NCBI GenBank assembly: GCA_029936315.1
Contig: JAPYTD010000031.1
Location: forward strand, 1-49,492
From: Planctomycetota bacterium
Lineage (GTDB): Bacteria; Planctomycetota; UBA1135; UBA2386
Length of the DNA: 49,492 nt
Direction: 5' to 3'
The first letter of the stretch is position 1; each line of letters begins with the position of its first letter. Shown here piece after piece: positions 4,886-49,492 of the stretch. The notes beneath the pieces were generated by a model, which saw only the letters and a program-made list of their open reading frames with translations, did not search any database and was not told where the DNA came from. A program made the translations under genes and the position numbers.

Positions 4886-6728
4886 TGCCGAGCGGGTTGG
4901 CCGGGTCGAGCACAGCCCACTGGTGGTACAGGCTCAGGCCGATGTTGGCGGGCGTTGGCGGAACGTTGAACGGTGCGCTCGCGGTGCCGCCACCGCTCGT
5001 GACGAATAGCTGCAGGACCGCAGGTGCGGCGTAGATGTCGCAGCCAGGTGCCCCCACCAACGGGATCGGCAACGGCGATCCGCTCCACGTTGTGTCCGAC
5101 AGACCCGAGACCATGATCGCGAATGCGGCCGGGATCGTGTTGTTGAGCGTCACGTTGTAGGTCGAGTTGAGGATCGGCGAGCCAGTGTGGCCAAGCGATG
5201 GCGTCACCGCGCCGCCACCTGAGCACTGCACGCGCCACGACGGCCGGTCCACCAGGCCCGACTGGTTCCAGTTGCCCGTGCCCGCGTTGCGGTAGTGGCC
5301 AATGCCGTTGGCGCCCGAGACGAGGTTGGAGATCACGCCGTCGGGCGAGTTCTCGTAGCCGACGTAGAACGTGCCGTTGACCGCGACTGGTGCCGCAAAC
5401 GTAGCCGTGTAGAAACCAGGCGTCGTGCCGACCGTGATCGTCGTTGTGGCGAGTGGCGTCGAGGCGGGGCCGTTGCCGGCGTCGAGGTAGATGTGTGCCG
5501 GTCGCACAATCGTGCCGTTGTTCGATTCGGTGTAGATGTCGAAGGAGCTGACTTGCAGGCTGGCGGCGTTTGCGACTCGGAACGTGTATTCGTACTGGTT
5601 CGTGCTGTTATCCAGCGTGCCGCCGTTGGGGTTGAGTTCCGGGCACGGCAGGGTGGCGGAGCCAGGGCAGCCTTGGCCGTAATTGGTGAACGATGCGCCG
5701 CTCGGGCGCACGATGTAGAGGCCAGTCACGCGATCCGACACGAGGATGTTGCCGGACGGCAAGAACGGGTAGCAACCCCAGCAGCCGTTGTAGCCGCCGG
5801 TTGCGCCGGGCCAGGTGTCGTACGAAGCGACCTCGACGGGGTTGCTTGGATCACTGATGTCGATGCAGCGATAACCTTCGGTGTAAAAGCTGACGTGGAC
5901 CTTGTCGCCGAGGATGAAGGCGTTGTGGGGGATCGCGCCCGAGTTGGGTGTGAACTGGCCGAGTGGAATCGGGTTCGACTTGTCCGTGATGTCGAACAAC
6001 TTGATGACTCCGCCGGTGACCTCATCCGTCGTCACGCAAAGCGTGCCCGCGGCGTTTGGCCACGCGTTGTGCGTGAAGTTACCTGGTGTCGGGGAATTGC
6101 TGAGCGTCGTCGGCGGGAACGTGCTGACATCCCAGATGCGCAGGTCGCCGTTGTAGATCATCGAGCCGTAGCCGTAGCCGTTCTCGACGCACATGTCGTG
6201 GAAGTAGTTGCTGTTGCCACCACCGCCAGCAAGTCCAATGTAGGTTGGGTTGGTCGGGTTGCTGTTCAGGTCCCACACCGGTGTGCCGGAACTACTGCCC
6301 GGGAGATACAGGCGGCCCGCTCCCTCATCGATGCAGATGTTGTGCGAGCTGTTCGAGTTGCCGGTTCCTGCCGTGCCAACAAGAACGGGACTGTTTGGGT
6401 TGGCCAGATTGATGATCTGGAAGCCCGCGGTCGCTTCGGTGACCACGTAGGCGTATGTGCCGAAGGTGCGGATATCTCGCCATGTCGACGACCCGAACGG
6501 GAAGAAGCCGCGTTCGATCGGGTTGGCCGGGTTGGTCACGTCGACCACGACCGTTCCCGTCGACGCGCAAAGCAGCGCATACTCATTGCCGTTGGGTGCG
6601 GTGTAGCCCCAGATGTCATTGAATGGGCCGTGATTGCTGAATGTGCCGAGCAAGGCACAGTTGACACCTTGGGCGGAGAGGGACCCGGCTAGGGCGGTGG
6701 CCAGCAGGATCGATTTGGAGATATGCAT
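4845..6728 (-). CDS. Secreted choice-of-anchor-B / LVIVD-repeat protein
   Basis: A 627-residue protein with a signal peptide (ILLATALAGSLSAQ). Residues about 25-345 hold repeated beta-propeller-like units with the pattern 'V-V-D-V-T-N-P-x-N-P' (VVVDVTNPANPIE, FQIINLANPNSPVLV, LFDITDKSNPIPLG, CIDISDPSNPVEV) and conserved His-containing stretches (SSHNICID, HNAW, PHNAF). This is the choice-of-anchor-B arrangement of LVIVD repeats. A middle segment follows a NYGQGCPGS motif and looks like a beta-sandwich. The last roughly 110 residues form the C-terminal domain shared with other secreted proteins here (SGSPLPIPLVGAPGCDIY). No enzyme motif is seen; an extracellular or surface role is inferred. 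A strong hairpin follows the stop. Confidence 0.85.
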   Translation of the reverse strand: MHISKSILLATALAGSLSAQGVNCALLGTFSNHGPFNDIWGYTAPNGNEYALLCASTGTVVVDVTNPANPIERGFFPFGSSTWRDIRTFGTYAYVVTEATAGFQIINLANPNSPVLVGTAGTGNSNSSHNICIDEGAGRLYLPGSSSGTPVWDLNSNPTNPTYIGLAGGGGNSNYFHDMCVENGYGYGSMIYNGDLRIWDVSTFPPTTLSNSPTPGNFTHNAWPNAAGTLCVTTDEVTGGVIKLFDITDKSNPIPLGQFTPNSGAIPHNAFILGDKVHVSFYTEGYRCIDISDPSNPVEVASYDTWPGATGGYNGCWGCYPFLPSGNILVSDRVTGLYIVRPSGASFTNYGQGCPGSATLPCPELNPNGGTLDNSTNQYEYTFRVANAASLQVSSFDIYTESNNGTIVRPAHIYLDAGNGPASTPLATTTITVGTTPGFYTATFAAPVAVNGTFYVGYENSPDGVISNLVSGANGIGHYRNAGTGNWNQSGLVDRPSWRVQCSGGGAVTPSLGHTGSPILNSTYNVTLNNTIPAAFAIMVSGLSDTTWSGSPLPIPLVGAPGCDIYAAPAVLQLFVTSGGGTASAPFNVPPTPANIGLSLYHQWAVLDPANPLGIVVSDAGRATIDI

Positions 6729-6879
6729 GAGAGAGTCCGCGTGGATGCGGTGGTTCGATGGGGTGGGCGACCCACAACTCTAGGCGAGAGAGGGCAATCC
6801 TCCAACGTGCCACCTGCCACCGTATCGGTGGGCCGTATCAGGTGAGCCTCGATCCTGACTGTGAAGCAAGCCGCACGTG

Positions 6880-7440
6880 CTACGCCGCGGCGGGCCAGAG
6901 CCAGACAAACGTGCCGGCCGTGATCAACGCGTAGATCACCCCGTCGATCATGAACTTGATCATGATGCCGGTGTCGACGCCCTTCCAAGTCCACTCGTGC
7001 ACGGTCGAGAACACGTAGCCCAAGAACGCAACGGCGCCGGTGAATTGGAAGACGGTCTTGCTGGCCGCGCCTGGGCCGTTGCCGATGCACGTCAGGTAGG
7101 CGCAGAAGGTGCCGACGACCAGCGTGAACACGAACCACTTGAGCAGCACCGGGCCCATGTTCCACATGCCGTCGGGGCGCACGATCATGACGCCGACGGG
7201 GCCGACCTTGAGCTTCTCAAGCATCTCGGGCGACTGCATGTCCTTCATCGATTTCGCGTTCGGGAACATGTATTGGCCAGGCGGCGTGCCGCGCACAGCG
7301 TCGCGGATCTTGTCTTCGTCCGGCAGCTTCTTGAAGTCGCTACGATGGAAGGGCAACACCATGTGGATGATGCTGCTGACGACGAATACGAACACTGACG
7401 ACAGCAGGATCGGCAGCCAAAGGTCTGCGAGCGAGGTCAT
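6880..7440 (-). CDS. Hypothetical membrane protein
   Basis: About 186 residues from ATG 7440 (MTSLADLWLPILLSSVFVF); in-frame ATGs at 7452 and 7449 would add up to four residues. It has an N-terminal helix, a polar region (VLPFHRSDFKKLPDEDKI) and three helices in the C-terminal half (around LLKWFVFTLVVGTFCAYL, FQFTGAVAFLGYVFS and IYALITAGTFVWLW). There is no recognised catalytic motif. It follows the two gene remnants at 7541-7850 on the same strand and is followed by the LVIVD gene. It is a good gene by composition; the function is unknown. Confidence 0.7.
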   Translation of the reverse strand: MTSLADLWLPILLSSVFVFVVSSIIHMVLPFHRSDFKKLPDEDKIRDAVRGTPPGQYMFPNAKSMKDMQSPEMLEKLKVGPVGVMIVRPDGMWNMGPVLLKWFVFTLVVGTFCAYLTCIGNGPGAASKTVFQFTGAVAFLGYVFSTVHEWTWKGVDTGIMIKFMIDGVIYALITAGTFVWLWPAAA

Positions 7441-7540
7441 GGTGACCATCATGCCGCGGTGCCGTTCTGAGAGTTAAGGCAAGTCCTGGGTCGGTCGCTA
7501 TTCGTGCATCTCCGTGGCCGATGCGCGGCCGAGGGTGGAT

Positions 7541-7684
7541 GGTGCCGAGCATCCAGGCGAACAGGACGCGCTCGGGAGTGTGAAGGTCGGCGAGGGCGAA
7601 GCCAGATGTCGTGAAGACACCAACCCCGATCATGTTCGCGACGACTAGGCAGACGGCGCTGGGCAGGCCGATGCCACGTTTCAT
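7541..7684 (-). pseudogene. N-terminal remnant of an APC-family amino-acid permease
   Basis: From ATG 7684 the first 48 or so residues (GLPSAVCLVVANMIGVGVFT, then TSGFALADL and RVLFAWMLG) match the first helix of amino-acid/polyamine/organocation permeases, including the helix-breaking 'N-M-I-G-x-G-x-F-x-T' motif that forms part of the substrate site. After about 7541 the frame turns into His/Arg-rich sequence without membrane helices and runs on to 7340 antisense-like inside the next gene. A full permease has 400-500 residues, so only the start remains. It cannot be functional as a transporter. Confidence 0.6.
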
Positions 7685-7712
7685 TTGGCGGAGGTTGATC
7701 CGGTCAGCGCCT

Positions 7713-7850
7713 TCATGCGCCAGGTGTCTCCTGGATGACTCCCGCGTCCATGAGGTTGGGCACGATCTTCTTGAGGTTGTTGTCGTCGGCCAAGAAGTCG
7801 AACACGACCGCGCGTGGCGCTTCGATCTCGATTTGGTAGGAGCTCTTCAC
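7713..7850 (-). pseudogene. N-terminal remnant of an SRPBCC (polyketide cyclase/START-like) protein
   Basis: A GTG at 7850, just after the stop of the VCBS gene, opens a 45-residue frame with the start of an SRPBCC domain: YQIEIEAPRAVVFDFLADD followed by NNLKKIVPNL. That is strand 1, then the 'AP..VVF.FL.D..N...' helix typical of this superfamily. It stops at TGA 7713-7715 after ETPGA, whereas family members have about 140-150 residues. Nothing downstream continues the fold in another frame. It is therefore a truncated gene lying directly against the permease remnant. Confidence 0.55.
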
Positions 7851-7864
7851 GGAGGGGATGCGTG

Positions 7865-10087
7865 CTAGTTCTTGCCGCCGATTGTCGTGCGCACGAGCTT
7901 CAGCGTGACGATCTCATCGCTGCCTTCGGTGATGCGCACGGTTCGATCGGGTGCGACATCCTGGAACGTCTGCGTCTTGCCAGTCGTTGGCCAGAAGATC
8001 TCCAACCGGTCGATCTTGGTTGCCTTGCCTATGCCGATTGTCTGGCGCAACGGGTTGGCGCCGAAGCTGCCGCCGCTGTTGACGTGGCGATAGACTGACC
8101 GCTCCTTGCCGCCTTCGGTGAATACTGCGCGGATCCTCGCACCGATGGCGCATCGGTTGCTCACGGTTCCGACGAGCTTCACGCACAGTGCGTGGTTGCC
8201 AAAGCCGGGGTTTTGGAACAGTGCGTTGTAGGACGGGTCGCCGGGGTAGGCGCCGCCCATCACGGAGTAGATGTCGAGGTCGCCGTCGTTGTCGAAGTCC
8301 GCATACGAGACGCTGTGACCCTTTTGCAGGTGGGCGAAGCCGCCAGCCATGCTGACGTCGGCGAACTTCTGGCCGCCCATGTTCTTGTACATGAGGTTCG
8401 GCATCAGGTTGTAGTAGAAGGGATCGCCGGTCCCGAGGTAGAAGTCGAGCCAGCCGTCGTTGTCGAGGTCGCCGAAGTTGGCACCCATCGGCAGTGCGGG
8501 ATAGTCGAGCCCCATCTCCTTCGCGGCATTGGTGAAGCCACCCTTGCCGTCTCCGTGCCACAGCCTCAGCAGGTCGTAGTTGCTGTCGCGAACGGTGATG
8601 CCGAGGTGGTGCCCAGCGATGTGGCCGACTCCCGTTGAGTAGGCTGCGACGAAGATGTCGAGGTTGCCGTCGTTGTCGTAGTCCCAGAACCACGTCGGGA
8701 AGCTCGCGACCGGTTCTTCCATCTTGAGCTTCGGCGCGACGTTCTCGAAGCGGTTGTTGCCGAGGTTGTGGTAGAGGCGATTCTCGCTGGCCAGATTGCT
8801 GATGAACAGGTCGACCAGGCCGTCGCCGTCGTAGTCACCAAACGACGTGCCCTTGGTGTAGCCCAGGTTCTCGACACCCGCTTCGCTTGCGATGTCGACG
8901 AAGGTGCCGTCACCCTCGTTGCGCCACAGGTGGCACGGTGCGTGGATCTTTGGCGTCGACTCATTGCCGACGAAGAGGTCGAGGTCGCCGTCGTTGTCGA
9001 TATCACCCCAGTCCGCTTGTGACGATGGGAACGCGATGTCACCAAATCCAGCCGCAAACGATACGTCGTCAAACGTGCCGTCGCCGCGGTTCTTCAACAG
9101 GGAGTTGGGGTGGCGGCCGTTGTTGTAGAGCCACGCGCCGCGCAACACGACGACATCGAGGTCGCCATCATTGTCGTAGTCGGCTTGGAAGATGTTGATG
9201 CCGCTCGTGATGCCGAGCAGGTTGGCTTCGTTCGTGCGATCGGTAAACGTGCCATCGCCATTGTTGCGCATGTAACGCATCTGGCCGTCGGCGGACCAGA
9301 TCGACATCAGGATGTCGAGATCATCGTCGCCGTCGAAGTCATCGACGACCAAGCCGCCAAGCAACTCGAACGTGTCGAGCCCGGCCTTGTTCGCGACGTT
9401 GTCGAAGTGCGGCATCGGTACCTGCGATTGCAGCGCTTCGATTGGCATACGCCGTGCTTCGGGCACACCTGCAGGCCATGTGCCAAGGGTCATGTGGGCA
9501 ATGTTCAGGAGCCAACGCGCACTGAGGTGCCAGTAGTCATCGGCGGGGCGGTTTGCGATGACGAGTTCGAAGCACGGGATCGCGTTGGTTGCACCTTCCT
9601 TGCGCGTGTGGATCGCGCCACCCTTTAGCGGCAGGATGCAACTCTCAGGTGTTGCGCGGGCGCAGCAGTTCTCGGTCTCTGCTTGGCGCATGTAGCCCAT
9701 GCCGAGGTAGAACACGATGGAGCTGGCCGCATCGAGGTTGCCTGGCAGTCGTCCGGCCCGCATCTCGTCGCTGGCCTTCTTGAGGATCTTGATCGAAGCC
9801 GCGGTGTCGCCCAGTCGCATGTGTGCAAGTGCGGCGTCGAGGCGCAGCTTCCAATCCGCCTTGTCGCCCTTGGCTTCGAGTTGCGCCCAGAACTCTTTCG
9901 CGCCTTTGTCGCCGTGATACTTGTGGCCGCTCTTGGCCCACTCAGCGATCTCAGCGAGTTTGCCAACCATCTTGGTATGGCTCGCCTTCTCCGCGGCGGT
10001 AGGGGTCGACGCCTGGGCGAGCAGGGTGACCGTGACCAACAGAACCATGGCGAGCAGGCGTATGGCCTGGCTTGAGGCTGTATTCAT
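7865..10087 (-). CDS. Secreted VCBS/FG-GAP repeat protein with C-terminal ASPIC/UnbV domain (CRTAC1 type)
   Basis: The frame is open to 10393, but ATG 10087 (MNTASSQAIRLLAMVLL) is preceded by GAGGA at a good distance and starts a signal peptide, giving 740 residues. About residues 30-215 are helical and TPR-like. Then come at least six FG-GAP/VCBS units with calcium-binding loops of the type D-x-D-x-D-G-x-x-D (DDFDGDDDLD, DYDNDGDLD, DIDNDGDLD, DYDGDGLVD, DYDNDGNLD). The C-terminus has the ASPIC/UnbV domain (CAIGARIRAVF ... SGGSFGANPLRQTIGIG). Such proteins are extracellular seven-bladed propellers found in many copies in Planctomycetota; their ligands are unknown. It is divergent from the hydratase gene. 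Confidence 0.9.
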   Translation of the reverse strand: MNTASSQAIRLLAMVLLVTVTLLAQASTPTAAEKASHTKMVGKLAEIAEWAKSGHKYHGDKGAKEFWAQLEAKGDKADWKLRLDAALAHMRLGDTAASIKILKKASDEMRAGRLPGNLDAASSIVFYLGMGYMRQAETENCCARATPESCILPLKGGAIHTRKEGATNAIPCFELVIANRPADDYWHLSARWLLNIAHMTLGTWPAGVPEARRMPIEALQSQVPMPHFDNVANKAGLDTFELLGGLVVDDFDGDDDLDILMSIWSADGQMRYMRNNGDGTFTDRTNEANLLGITSGINIFQADYDNDGDLDVVVLRGAWLYNNGRHPNSLLKNRGDGTFDDVSFAAGFGDIAFPSSQADWGDIDNDGDLDLFVGNESTPKIHAPCHLWRNEGDGTFVDIASEAGVENLGYTKGTSFGDYDGDGLVDLFISNLASENRLYHNLGNNRFENVAPKLKMEEPVASFPTWFWDYDNDGNLDIFVAAYSTGVGHIAGHHLGITVRDSNYDLLRLWHGDGKGGFTNAAKEMGLDYPALPMGANFGDLDNDGWLDFYLGTGDPFYYNLMPNLMYKNMGGQKFADVSMAGGFAHLQKGHSVSYADFDNDGDLDIYSVMGGAYPGDPSYNALFQNPGFGNHALCVKLVGTVSNRCAIGARIRAVFTEGGKERSVYRHVNSGGSFGANPLRQTIGIGKATKIDRLEIFWPTTGKTQTFQDVAPDRTVRITEGSDEIVTLKLVRTTIGGKN

Positions 10088-45042: not shown

Positions 45043-45402
45043 ATGCTGCTTCAACAGATCCCATTCACCGCCGATGTCCCCGAGCTCGGCACTCTCGCCA
45101 TCAATCTTGGCATCGCGCTTGTGCTCGGGCAGGTTCTCGGCTGGCACTTCGTGCAGGTGCTCAGCAACAAACGGAAGCTGGCGCGGGTGTTGATGTTCAT
45201 TGCGGCAACGACGGTGCTGATCATCACCGTTGTCGCTTCTTCGCTGGCATTGTCACTGGGTCTGGTTGGCGCCTTGTCGATCATCCGGTTCCGCACGCCG
45301 GTCAAAGAGCCAGAAGAGCTGGCCTATCTGTTTCTCGCGATAGCCTCGAGTGAGGTAGTCATGAGCTTCGACCGGTGTCTACCTAGGCGACGCGAATGCT
45401 GA
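45043..45402 (+). pseudogene. Truncated DUF4956 membrane protein
   Basis: 119 residues from ATG 45043 (MLLQQIPFTADVPELG). The DUF4956 core is clear: INLGIALVLGQVLGWHFVQV, three hydrophobic segments and the signature LGLVGALSIIRFRTPVKEPE with AYLFLAIA. Family members run to about 200-230 residues; here the domain stops after FLAIA, the frame continues with unrelated residues (SSEVVMSFDRCLPRRREC) and ends at a TGA overlapping the CotH start. DUF4956 proteins usually accompany CotH and VTC-domain proteins, as here. Confidence 0.65.
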
Positions 45403-48218
45403 TCAAGGGCCAACCTAAACACGCTTCCCGCGTGGCAGTTCCCGTGCTGTTCTTGGCACTGGGACTCGTCTTGGGTGCCGCGTTGTCGGGATTGCTTTCT
45501 GATGGCACTGAGATTGATGGCACTGAGATTGATGACACGGGGAAGCACTCTGCCGGCAGCAACGAGGAGCCTGCAAAGCCGCCGTCCGGTGCCAGCGTCT
45601 CGACGAACAACCCTGACGCCTTCGGCTCAGTCGGCGAATTGGAACAACTGCAGATCACGATCCGCGAGGCGGACTGGCAGGTGCTGCAACGTGCCCGCGA
45701 TCGTGCCCTCCAGAAGGGCATGATCATTCAGGATAAGCGCGACATCGTGCCGGTCGCGTTGGCACTCGGTGACGAGCGGGCGACCGGCAAGGTGCGTCTC
45801 AAGGGCGATTGGCTCGATCACGTCAAGACCGAGCAATGGTCGCTGCGTTTCGAACTCGATACGGCGTTTCTCGGCATGCGTCGGTTCTCTATCCAGCATC
45901 CGTTGACACGCGGGTTCGTCATGGAGTGGCTGGTGATGAAGACCGCGCAGCGACAGGGCGTGCTCGCACCGCGCAGCGACTACGTGCAGGTGATGATCAA
46001 CGGCACCCCAAAGGGTGTCTACTACCTGGAAGAACACTTCAGCAAGGAACTGCTCGAAGCGCAGGGGCGCCGCGAAGGCCCGATCGTTCGCTTTGACGAG
46101 TCGGCGATGTGGCAGACCTGGTTGCAGCACGGCTTCCACAAGACTGGCCAGTTGTCGCCGGAGCTTTGGAGCGCGACCTCGTTCTTCGTCGCTGAGGTCG
46201 GTGGCTTTGGTGAAGGAGCGCTGCGGAAGAACAAGGCGCTTGATGCGCGGTTGCAGCGTGCACTCGCCCAGGCACGCGACCTACAACGCTTGGCGGTCAG
46301 TTCGATGGATGGTTTCCCATCGCGGTCGGCGCAGGCGTTGACGCAGCTCGAAGGCAAGACCGTTGAGGACGTGTTCGCCGTCGACAAGCTCGGCAAATGG
46401 CTGGCGGTCTACACGCTGTTCCGCGGCTTCCACGGCCTCGCGTGGCATCAGTACCGGTTCTACCACGACCCTGTGCTCGACCGTCTCGAGCCGATCGCTT
46501 TCGACACCGGTGCCAGCCTGATTGAGCACGCCGATGAGTTGGCGCTGTCGTCTTTGGATGCTCGCTTGTTTGCCAGTAGTGACGCGGTGATGGCTGCGGC
46601 ATTCGAAGAACTCGGCCGCATGACCGAGCCAGGCTGGGTCGAAGACCTGGTGTCGGATCTGCGCCCGCGACTGCGGGAGATTGTCGCAGCGATGACTAAG
46701 GCGGGCATGGTCGTGCCAGGCTTTGATTTTGCGGAAGTGCTAGACGTTGCGATCCCGATGCAAGTGGCGTCGCTGCGCCGGATCGTGCGCCCCGTTGCGA
46801 TTCTTGGGCACACGGCGAGTCACGTCGGTGTTCGGTTGCCGTCTGGCAAGGACCTGCGAACGATCGACGTGGATGCCTGGGCAACCACGCTGATCCCGAC
46901 GCAGATCACCGGCTTTCGATTTGGTAACGGCCGCGTGATCTCCGCCGCGCAAGCCATGGTTGGTATCGCCGACCTGCCAGATTCGGAGGCGTTGGTGACG
47001 GTCCGAAGCGATGGCTCAGTGCTGTTGCCGCGCGACGGTAGGCACGTTCGCTTTCGCTTCCCGATCGACTACCGTCTGGCCGGTCTGTCCGAAATCCAGG
47101 CGATCAAACGTGCCATTCGCGGCGGCGTGCTGCCAGAGGACAAGGGCAAGGTCGATGTGTCGGTGTTGTTCCGGACGTTGGCTGAGACCCAAGACCGCAT
47201 CAAACCGATGGTCGTGCGTCGCTCACCGGACCCGGAGATGGCGCGGATCGGCCGCCCGCCTGCTCCGACCTTGGCGGAAGCTCTGCAGCGCCATGCGTTC
47301 TTGCACTACGACTTCGATCGCGGCGAGATCGGCATCGATCAGGGTCGCCATGAGGTGGCCGGCGACCTCGTCTTGCCAGATGGCATGATGTTGCACGTTG
47401 CGCCAGGTGCCGAGTTGCTGTTCGACGAAGGCTGCGTGCTGCTGTGCTCACGCATGAAGGTCGCTGGCACCAAGGCACAACCGGTGCGGTTCAAGGCCAA
47501 GGATGCGGCTCGCGGCTTTGGCGGCGTTTTGGTCCTCGGTGGCGCGGGTGCCAGCGAATTGCGGTTCTTTGAGATCACGAATGCGACCGCGATTGCGCGC
47601 GGCGGGTGGCAGAGCAGTGGTGCCGTGACGTTCTATCGGGCGCCGGTTTCGTTCTATGACTGCACCTTCCGCGATGCGAACTGCGAAGACGTGGTCAACG
47701 TGTTTGCGGCAGCGGTGCACTTTGAGCGATGCGTGTTCGATGGCGGCCCGCACGATTTGTTTGACGGCGACTTCGTGACCGGCAAGATCGTGGATTGTCG
47801 CTTCCTGCGTTCGGGCGAAGACGCGATCGATGTCAGTGGCTCGCAGTTGACCGTCACGGGTTGCCATTTCGAAGCGATAGGCGATAAGGCTCTGTCGATT
47901 GGAGAGGACTCCAACGTCAACGTGCAGTCGTGCCATGTTGTGTCCGCTTCGATCGCGGTTGCGGCCAAGGACCGTTCGAAAGTGACGCTTGATGGCTTGA
48001 CCGTCGATGCCGTCGAGAACTTCATCTTTACCGCCTACATCAAGAAACCGGAGTTTGGCGCGTCCCAGTTGTCAGCGACGGGGCTCCATTGGGGAGGCCA
48101 GGGACCCCCGAAGCATCTTGCGCAGACCGGGTGTGAGATCACGGTCGACAACCAGTTGGTCGTTGCGCAAGACATCGACGTTGCGGCGCTGTATCGCCAG
48201 AAGGTGCTCGGCAAATGA
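45396..48218 (+). CDS. CotH-kinase-like protein with C-terminal parallel beta-helix
   Basis: 940 residues. An N-terminal membrane helix (VAVPVLFLALGLVLGAALSG) is followed by a CotH domain: LQITIREADWQVLQRAR, GKVRLKGDWLDHV, VQVMINGTPKGVYYLEEHF and WHQYRFYHDPVLDRLEPIAF with the acidic end DTG. CotH folds like a protein kinase and phosphorylates surface proteins in spores. About residues 660-930 form a right-handed beta-helix with repeated turns (FYDCTFRDANCEDVVNVF, HFERCVFDGG, IVDCRFLRSGEDAIDVSG). Probably membrane-anchored with the rest outside. The usual partners DUF4956 and VTC flank it but are truncated. Confidence 0.82.
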   Translation: MLIKGQPKHASRVAVPVLFLALGLVLGAALSGLLSDGTEIDGTEIDDTGKHSAGSNEEPAKPPSGASVSTNNPDAFGSVGELEQLQITIREADWQVLQRARDRALQKGMIIQDKRDIVPVALALGDERATGKVRLKGDWLDHVKTEQWSLRFELDTAFLGMRRFSIQHPLTRGFVMEWLVMKTAQRQGVLAPRSDYVQVMINGTPKGVYYLEEHFSKELLEAQGRREGPIVRFDESAMWQTWLQHGFHKTGQLSPELWSATSFFVAEVGGFGEGALRKNKALDARLQRALAQARDLQRLAVSSMDGFPSRSAQALTQLEGKTVEDVFAVDKLGKWLAVYTLFRGFHGLAWHQYRFYHDPVLDRLEPIAFDTGASLIEHADELALSSLDARLFASSDAVMAAAFEELGRMTEPGWVEDLVSDLRPRLREIVAAMTKAGMVVPGFDFAEVLDVAIPMQVASLRRIVRPVAILGHTASHVGVRLPSGKDLRTIDVDAWATTLIPTQITGFRFGNGRVISAAQAMVGIADLPDSEALVTVRSDGSVLLPRDGRHVRFRFPIDYRLAGLSEIQAIKRAIRGGVLPEDKGKVDVSVLFRTLAETQDRIKPMVVRRSPDPEMARIGRPPAPTLAEALQRHAFLHYDFDRGEIGIDQGRHEVAGDLVLPDGMMLHVAPGAELLFDEGCVLLCSRMKVAGTKAQPVRFKAKDAARGFGGVLVLGGAGASELRFFEITNATAIARGGWQSSGAVTFYRAPVSFYDCTFRDANCEDVVNVFAAAVHFERCVFDGGPHDLFDGDFVTGKIVDCRFLRSGEDAIDVSGSQLTVTGCHFEAIGDKALSIGEDSNVNVQSCHVVSASIAVAAKDRSKVTLDGLTVDAVENFIFTAYIKKPEFGASQLSATGLHWGGQGPPKHLAQTGCEITVDNQLVVAQDIDVAALYRQKVLGK

Positions 48219-48322
48219 TGCGCTACGAGGTCAAGCTGGTTGGTGCTGAGCCCGATTTGTCGCGGGTCAACGCCGAGCTGCGCCTGCTGCCATCGGTGAA
48301 ACCCTGCGCTGATTGGCGGTGA
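48218..48322 (+). pseudogene. N-terminal remnant of a VTC-domain (polyphosphate polymerase-type) protein
   Basis: The start ATG overlaps the stop of the CotH gene (ATGATG/TGA; ATG 48215 is in frame too). The first residues MRYEVKLVGAEPDLSRVNAE match the beginning of VTC domains, where the first strand R-Y-E-x-K starts the tunnel-forming barrel. The frame ends after 34 residues (CADWR and TGA), while VTC proteins have about 240. Nothing in 48323-48440 continues it. The order DUF4956-CotH-VTC is the known cassette, which supports the identification. Confidence 0.55.
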
Positions 48323-48440
48323 AGTTGCGGTCGCATGGATGAGGCTGCGGGCCACAGAACATCGCGCGGCATGGCAATGGTGCGCACGGCGCATGGGCCA
48401 AAGGGCAGCAGGAATCCCATAGTGAGTGTATCTTCGCGAT

Positions 48441-49492
48441 ATGGAACGCCTCGCGCTTGGACTCCTCGTCCTGATTTCGCTCGCTGTGTCGGGTATTGCG
48501 CAAACGAACAACTGGACGCAGGTCGCAACTGGCAGCAGTCCGAGTGCTCGCGTAAACCACGCAATGGCCTACGACAGCGTGCGGGGGAAGGTCGTTGTGT
48601 TTGGCGGTAACTACTGGAACGGCTCTGCCGGCACCTACTTCAACGACACGTGGGAGTATGACGGCAGCAACTGGACGCAGGTCACGACTGCCAGCAGTCC
48701 GAGTGCTCGCACAAGCCACACGATGGTCTACGACAGCGTGCGGCAGAAGGTCGTTTTGTTTGGCGGACTCGACAACAACTTCAACTTCCTCAACGACACG
48801 TGGGAGTATGACGGCAGCAACTGGACACAGGTAACGACTACCAGCAGTCCGGGTAGTCGCTATACCCACGCGATGGTCTACGACAGCGCGCGGCAGAAGG
48901 TCGTTATGTTTGGGGGATTCGACAACTTCAACTACGTCAACGACACGTGGGAGTTTGACGGCTCCGACTGGACGCAGGTCACGACTACCAACAGTCCGAG
49001 TACTCGCATTAGCCACAAGATGGTCTACGACAGCGCGCGGCAGAAGGTCGTTATGTTTGGCGGCTACGCCGGCGGCGGCAACTTCGTCAACGACACGTGG
49101 GAGTATGACGGCTCCGACTGGACGCAGGTCACGACTGCCAGCAGTCCGAGTGCTCGCGGTGGCCACGAGATGGCCTACGACAGTGCGCGGCAAAAGGTCG
49201 TTGTGTTTGGCGGCTTCGACGGCGTCGGCTACGCCAACGACACGTGGGAGTATGACGGCAACGACTGGACGCAGATCTCGCCTGCCAGCAGTCCGAGTGG
49301 TCGCGATCGCCACGCGATGGTCTACGACAGCGCGCGGCAGAAGGTCGTTGTGTTTGGCGGCTACGCTAGCGGCTACCTCAGCGACACGTGGGAGTATGAT
49401 CTCACCACCCCCGCGTCGTCTGTAGGGTTTGGCATTGGCTGCCCCGCAACCCAGCCACTCGCCTTGAACAGCAACCTGCCGATACTTGGCAC
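48441..49492 (+). CDS. Secreted kelch-repeat protein, partial at right edge
   Basis: From ATG 48441 a signal peptide (ERLALGLLVLISLAVSGIAQ) is followed by six kelch units with the pattern 'W.QV....SP.AR..H.MVYDS.R.KVV.FGG......NDTWEYDG'. Each unit has the paired Gly (FGG) and the Trp/Tyr spacing of kelch blades, so a six-bladed beta-propeller is expected. After the last unit comes VGFGIGCPATQPLALN, the start of the C-terminal domain shared with other secreted proteins in the window. The frame is open to the end. A TATCTT hexamer lies 6 bases before the ATG. It is probably extracellular; the ligand is unknown. The gene is just downstream of the VTC remnant. Confidence 0.88.
   Translation, partial: MERLALGLLVLISLAVSGIAQTNNWTQVATGSSPSARVNHAMAYDSVRGKVVVFGGNYWNGSAGTYFNDTWEYDGSNWTQVTTASSPSARTSHTMVYDSVRQKVVLFGGLDNNFNFLNDTWEYDGSNWTQVTTTSSPGSRYTHAMVYDSARQKVVMFGGFDNFNYVNDTWEFDGSDWTQVTTTNSPSTRISHKMVYDSARQKVVMFGGYAGGGNFVNDTWEYDGSDWTQVTTASSPSARGGHEMAYDSARQKVVVFGGFDGVGYANDTWEYDGNDWTQISPASSPSGRDRHAMVYDSARQKVVVFGGYASGYLSDTWEYDLTTPASSVGFGIGCPATQPLALNSNLPILG
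48510..49410 (+). repeat. Six tandem DNA repeats inside the kelch gene
   Basis: Units beginning at about 48510, 48669, 48819, 48966, 49116 and 49263 have lengths 159, 150, 147, 150, 147 and about 147 bases, all multiples of three. Blocks such as GTCTACGACAGCGCGCGGCA and GACACGTGGGAGTATGACGG recur almost unchanged. Such near-identity at the DNA level points to recent duplication and to possible copy-number change. Confidence 0.85.

Follow-up and report, generated by a model that had tools for sequence, protein, structure and literature searches.

A planctomycete DUF4956-CotH-VTC locus with CotH as its only complete gene, a probable case of cassette decay through two separate events

RESULTS

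Overview of the locus

The window, i.e., the whole stretch of 49,492 nucleotides that was analysed, is the entire contig C180 of a Planctomycetota draft genome (4.98 Mb in 180 contigs; completeness, 92.1%; estimated contamination, 2.5%). Near its end, a 3'-truncated DUF4956 gene, a complete CotH gene and a 3'-truncated VTC gene lie on the plus strand in overlapping frames, followed by a repeat and a Kelch-repeat gene. The coordinates and frames given in a preliminary description of this DNA were reproduced, and its view that the three families form a recurring cassette agrees with the intact copies in relatives described below and with the parts of published reports that deal with neighboring genes. 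CotH being the only complete gene, the locus does not hold three adjacent complete genes. The tetranucleotide composition of the cassette correlates with that of the first 42 kb of the contig (r = 0.96) and fits the host, and a foreign origin found no support in either GC or tetranucleotide content. The window contains no Rfam matches, and scans for promoters and terminators were uninformative (2 and 7 sites versus shuffle means of 0.8 and 3.6, respectively).

The truncated DUF4956 gene and its junction with CotH

The DUF4956 gene (45043 to 45402, plus strand) encodes 101 homologous residues followed by 18 unrelated ones, and its stop codon (TGA, 45400 to 45402) overlaps the CotH start codon (ATG at 45396). 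The product matches Pfam PF16316 with 43.2 bits, above the cut-off of 30.6 (E = 4.5e-11), and the domain is incomplete, covering positions 18 to 81 of 169 in that profile and 12 to 102 of 219 in our own. Identity to the DUF4956 proteins in the cassettes of relatives ranges from 53 to 86% and stops at residue 101 (base 45345), very close to the approximately 100 matching residues first reported. Two or three gapped alignments (from L054 and L052) ran past this base, to 45381, 45594 and 45675; these were judged to be over-extensions, the longer two entering CotH. All 24 columns that are highly conserved across these 101 residues are preserved in the remnant.

Between the break and the CotH start lies a segment of 50 bp (45346 to 45395, strand not assigned), in which no DUF4956 homology was found and which occurs only once in the host genome. 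The distance from residue 101 to the CotH start is 363 bp in G002 (a genome of the host's genus), 378 bp in G020 and 394 bp in G018, where the CotH starts of the latter two were taken as GTG codons picked to agree with the conserved start. Judged from the spacing in these three relatives, about 313 to 344 bp are missing at the junction in the window.

The truncated VTC gene and the adjacent repeat and Kelch gene

The start of the VTC gene (48215 to 48322, plus strand) overlaps the CotH stop, an arrangement common to the window, G018, G020 and G002. Its first 27 to 28 residues are 59 to 64% identical to the VTC proteins of four relatives by tblastn, and homology ends at 48295 to 48298; the initial estimate of about 30 residues was thus close. 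The 35-residue frame has no Pfam match and does not contain the full polymerase domain of PF09359. A repeat of about 70 bp (48301 to 48376, plus strand) starts a few bases from where VTC breaks off and has two more copies in the host, on contigs C159 and C78 (L046, 36 to 109; L051, 2682 to 2751). We considered whether it is a widespread mobile element and rejected this, since the host has three copies of it and the 35 relatives have none. A Kelch-repeat gene with its own start follows (48441 to 49490, plus strand) and continues past the contig end, which falls inside it, about 1.2 kb from the VTC break. The VTC break is a join to other sequence, unlike the DUF4956 break, and this supports the earlier argument that a single deletion cannot produce both: a loss of about 313 to 344 bp stands at one junction and a join to the repeat and Kelch region at the other. 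A frameshift concealing the lost parts nearby was also dismissed, because tblastn of 11 DUF4956 and 8 VTC sequences against the whole window returned no convincing second piece.

As a side observation, G018 likewise has a Kelch-repeat gene upstream of glyS and close to it (C193, L073), in the opposite orientation, and Kelch genes appear to be multi-copy in this group. The sequence upstream of glyS showed nothing cassette-like in G003, G004, G018 and G020, with G003 offering only 2.9 kb there; G001 and G002 hold too little sequence upstream of glyS for this comparison.

The intact CotH gene

The CotH gene (45396 to 48218, plus strand) encodes 940 residues comprising an N-terminal transmembrane helix (residues 14 to 33 in the predicted model), a CotH-fold domain and a beta-helix. 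As had been proposed, it is intact and overlaps both neighbors (45396 to 45402 and 48215 to 48218). It is full length relative to its homologues and 44 to 53% identical to the four closest, 53% being the value for the nearest homologue found. All 39 columns invariant among 32 other sequences are kept, as are 87 of the 89 columns invariant among 17 other, closer sequences; the members of this close set themselves deviate at 0 to 10 columns. The Pfam match to PF08757 (37.2 bits; cut-off, 23.8) covers only profile positions 1 to 113 of 322 and is accompanied by a weak beta-helix match. A structure predicted from 33 sequences (mean pLDDT, 87; pTM, 0.66) matches 5JDA, aligning with Bacillus cereus CotH over about 400 columns, which identifies the CotH fold.

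The two catalytic aspartates of Bacillus CotH are described as important in the portion of PMC7821199 available to us; we placed Asp228 and Asp251 provisionally in 5JD9 through their 23-residue spacing. By profile alignment only, His346 of the window CotH (46431 to 46433) aligns to Asp228 and is histidine in 33 of 33 aligned subfamily members, and D370 corresponds to Asp251 and is aspartate in 33 of 33. R354 and L364 to P366, together with D370, are also invariant in the aligned subfamily. On these alignments, the subfamily with histidine at the Asp228 position possibly carries out a different chemistry. The preliminary description had linked the cassette to polyphosphate and surface-protein phosphorylation; this link was not established, given that what bears on it is the gene-neighborhood reports, as far as the consulted parts of PMC7112168 and PMC2879425 go, and the histidine at the Asp228 position.

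Census of related loci

Eight aligned CotH proteins served as the query for a search of one genome per species. Of the 375 stretches that matched, 346 encode relatives, and the top 80 were retained; their six frames were scanned with neighbor profiles derived from 11 DUF4956 and 8 VTC sequences. In these best 80 of 346 loci, all 53 DUF4956 neighbors and all 42 VTC neighbors are full length (7 and 3 matches at locus edges excluded, respectively), and the sole short DUF4956 is the window copy. Both partners accompany CotH in 43 of the 80, DUF4956 only in 16, VTC only in 2 and neither in 19, many of these loci being cut by contig ends. When restricted to the 46 of the 80 with at least 2.5 kb on each side, the corresponding numbers are 28, 8, 1 and 9. 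CotH without partners thus occurs in relatives, e.g., in G018 (C161, L113), and the 9 stand-alone cases among these 46 loci suggest that CotH may not need a cassette.

Among the related genomes are Planctomycetota metagenome-assembled genomes (MAGs) and two isolates, Pla86 and Pla163. Of the 154 genomes that represent the order, 18 have this CotH type at E = 1e-100, the host being one of them; G001 and G003, which belong to the host's genus, lack it. The complete copies that were sought are present in both relatives and host, with intact cassettes in G018 (C67), G020 (C39), G002 (C183) and others. Gene order differs elsewhere, being DUF4956-VTC-CotH in L104 and CotH-DUF4956-VTC in L137 and L144. 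Full-length partners with CotH were also observed in Sulfidibacter corallicola and the archaeon Methanogenium marinum (L111 and L133), so the cassette is distributed over distant lineages.

Other cassette copies in the host genome

The host genome has DUF4956 matches at five loci, VTC matches at four loci and 13 CotH matches. Contig C159 (L046) carries a full DUF4956 gene, an 89-codon CotH remnant (7061 to 7330) and a full VTC gene, the last without a sequence match among solved structures. The remnant joins the CotH start to its last residues, about 2.6 kb having been lost in frame when compared with C183 of G002. Positions 6352 to 7069 of C159 align with 1691 to 2404 of C183, and 7301 to 8979 with 5228 to 6929; because the alignment with the intact cassette holds on either flank of the gap, C159 is its positional orthologue and lost CotH in frame. 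The shared part of DUF4956 is 63% identical between the window and C159, compared with 79% between C159 and G002. The window and C159 loci are old paralogues. Their losses are complementary, DUF4956 and VTC being broken at the window and CotH at C159.

Orphan 3' parts of DUF4956 or VTC were found on none of the host contigs, the nearest copies being the intact genes of C159, and every match to the missing VTC part in the host genome was a full gene (C159, C103 and C18). Contig C11 breaks off within a CotH gene that follows a full DUF4956 gene, and C103 has the tail of a CotH gene together with a full VTC gene at its end; these ends (L047 and L050) overlap by 133 bp, of which 129 are identical (97%). 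We infer that C11 and C103 represent a single DUF4956-CotH-VTC cassette split by strain variation. Further sets are carried by C18 and C72, and the other sets in the host genome look complete.

DISCUSSION

We regard the window locus as probably a recently decayed copy of the DUF4956-CotH-VTC cassette, in which two separate events left CotH alone complete. One event would have removed about 313 to 344 bp after codon 101 of DUF4956, ahead of the CotH start; the other would be a rearrangement after VTC codon 27 or 28 that swapped the rest of VTC for the repeat and the region upstream of the Kelch gene. Since the DUF4956 remnant keeps all of its highly conserved columns, the break looks recent, although this conservation could also mean that the remnant is still in use. 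The decay was probably tolerated owing to the four other DUF4956 loci in the genome. The end of the shortened DUF4956 frame falls within the CotH start, so that translation could continue into CotH. CotH probably still functions as an enzyme anchored in the membrane, with a CotH fold and a beta-helix, either by itself or together with partners encoded at other loci.

Either junction could instead be an assembly error, given a draft assembly with strain variation. That a misjoin at one or both junctions hides genes that are full length in the organism seems unlikely to us, although the genome is in 180 contigs with some estimated contamination, another cassette is split between C11 and C103 by strain variants, and the VTC break coincides with a repeat that recurs on two other contigs, the kind of site at which misjoins commonly arise. 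The 50 bp at the DUF4956 junction occur nowhere else in the genome, which is not expected of a repeat-driven misjoin, and a misjoin should leave orphan 3' parts, which no contig has unless they were left unassembled at a completeness of 92.1%. We give somewhat less credit still to an insertion in which a mobile segment consisting of the repeat and the Kelch gene split VTC and placed its 3' part past the contig end. The start of the repeat at the VTC break and the contig end about 1.2 kb farther on, within the Kelch gene, would suit such an insertion, but the missing part matched only full genes on three other contigs, an incidental view of the sequence beside the break showed no transposase or terminal repeats, and the DUF4956 truncation would be left unexplained.

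It is very improbable that the 119-residue DUF4956 and 35-residue VTC products are functional mini-proteins. The 24 of 24 conserved columns in the DUF4956 remnant and the overlap of its stop with the CotH start would be in keeping with function, but no short forms occur among the 53 DUF4956 and 42 VTC neighbors in the best 80 of 346 loci, and from what is known of the family, 35 residues should be too few for a polymerase domain whose Pfam model has 235 positions. Conserved mini-proteins were rejected on the basis of this census, and conserved short versions in relatives, by which the preliminary description was to be judged, were not seen.

If the window is a cassette decayed in two events, one might ask whether its CotH now acts in trans with the DUF4956-VTC pair of C159. 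The complementary loss at C159 would allow it, but the two loci are old paralogues and the other sets of the host look complete, and we consider it unlikely; were it true, nature would have supplied evidence that the three products cooperate and yet need not share a locus. The two-locus split, if real, would make CotH separable from its partners and thereby limit any model of a three-part complex. The function of the DUF4956-CotH-VTC cassette is little studied, and within the open-licence PMC literature, DUF4956 turned up in the full text of three papers and together with "VTC domain" in none. Natural loss mutants show which cassette genes can be lost separately; coming from one draft genome, the present case chiefly illustrates how redundant copies decay.

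Comparison with known systems

According to the part of PMC7112168 consulted, accessory genes for CotH, a polyphosphate polymerase and DUF4956 adjoin pel operons in streptococci, clostridia and bifidobacteria, and in the consulted parts of PMC2879425 and PMC11677781, a single locus of Clostridium perfringens is listed with both VTC and CotH genes. The window resembles the pel-adjoining group, as described there, in having the three families side by side, and differs from it in that the planctomycete CotH has a C-terminal beta-helix and that both partners are broken. With the spore-coat kinase CotH of Bacillus (5JD9 and 5JDA; PMC7821199, as far as consulted), the window CotH has the fold in common, both by Foldseek (TM-score by target length, 0.72; E = 1.9e-12) and by sequence profile (E = 9.1e-10), and in the profile alignment D370 corresponds to Asp251; it differs in being 940 residues long with a beta-helix and in having, in that alignment, His346 opposite the catalytic Asp228. 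Intact Planctomycetota cassettes, such as those of the MAGs JAEUHP (G018), JANSXC (G020) and HyVt-435 (G002) and of the isolate Pla86, have the same DUF4956-CotH-VTC order as the window, and in all of these, in contrast to the window, the outer genes are complete.
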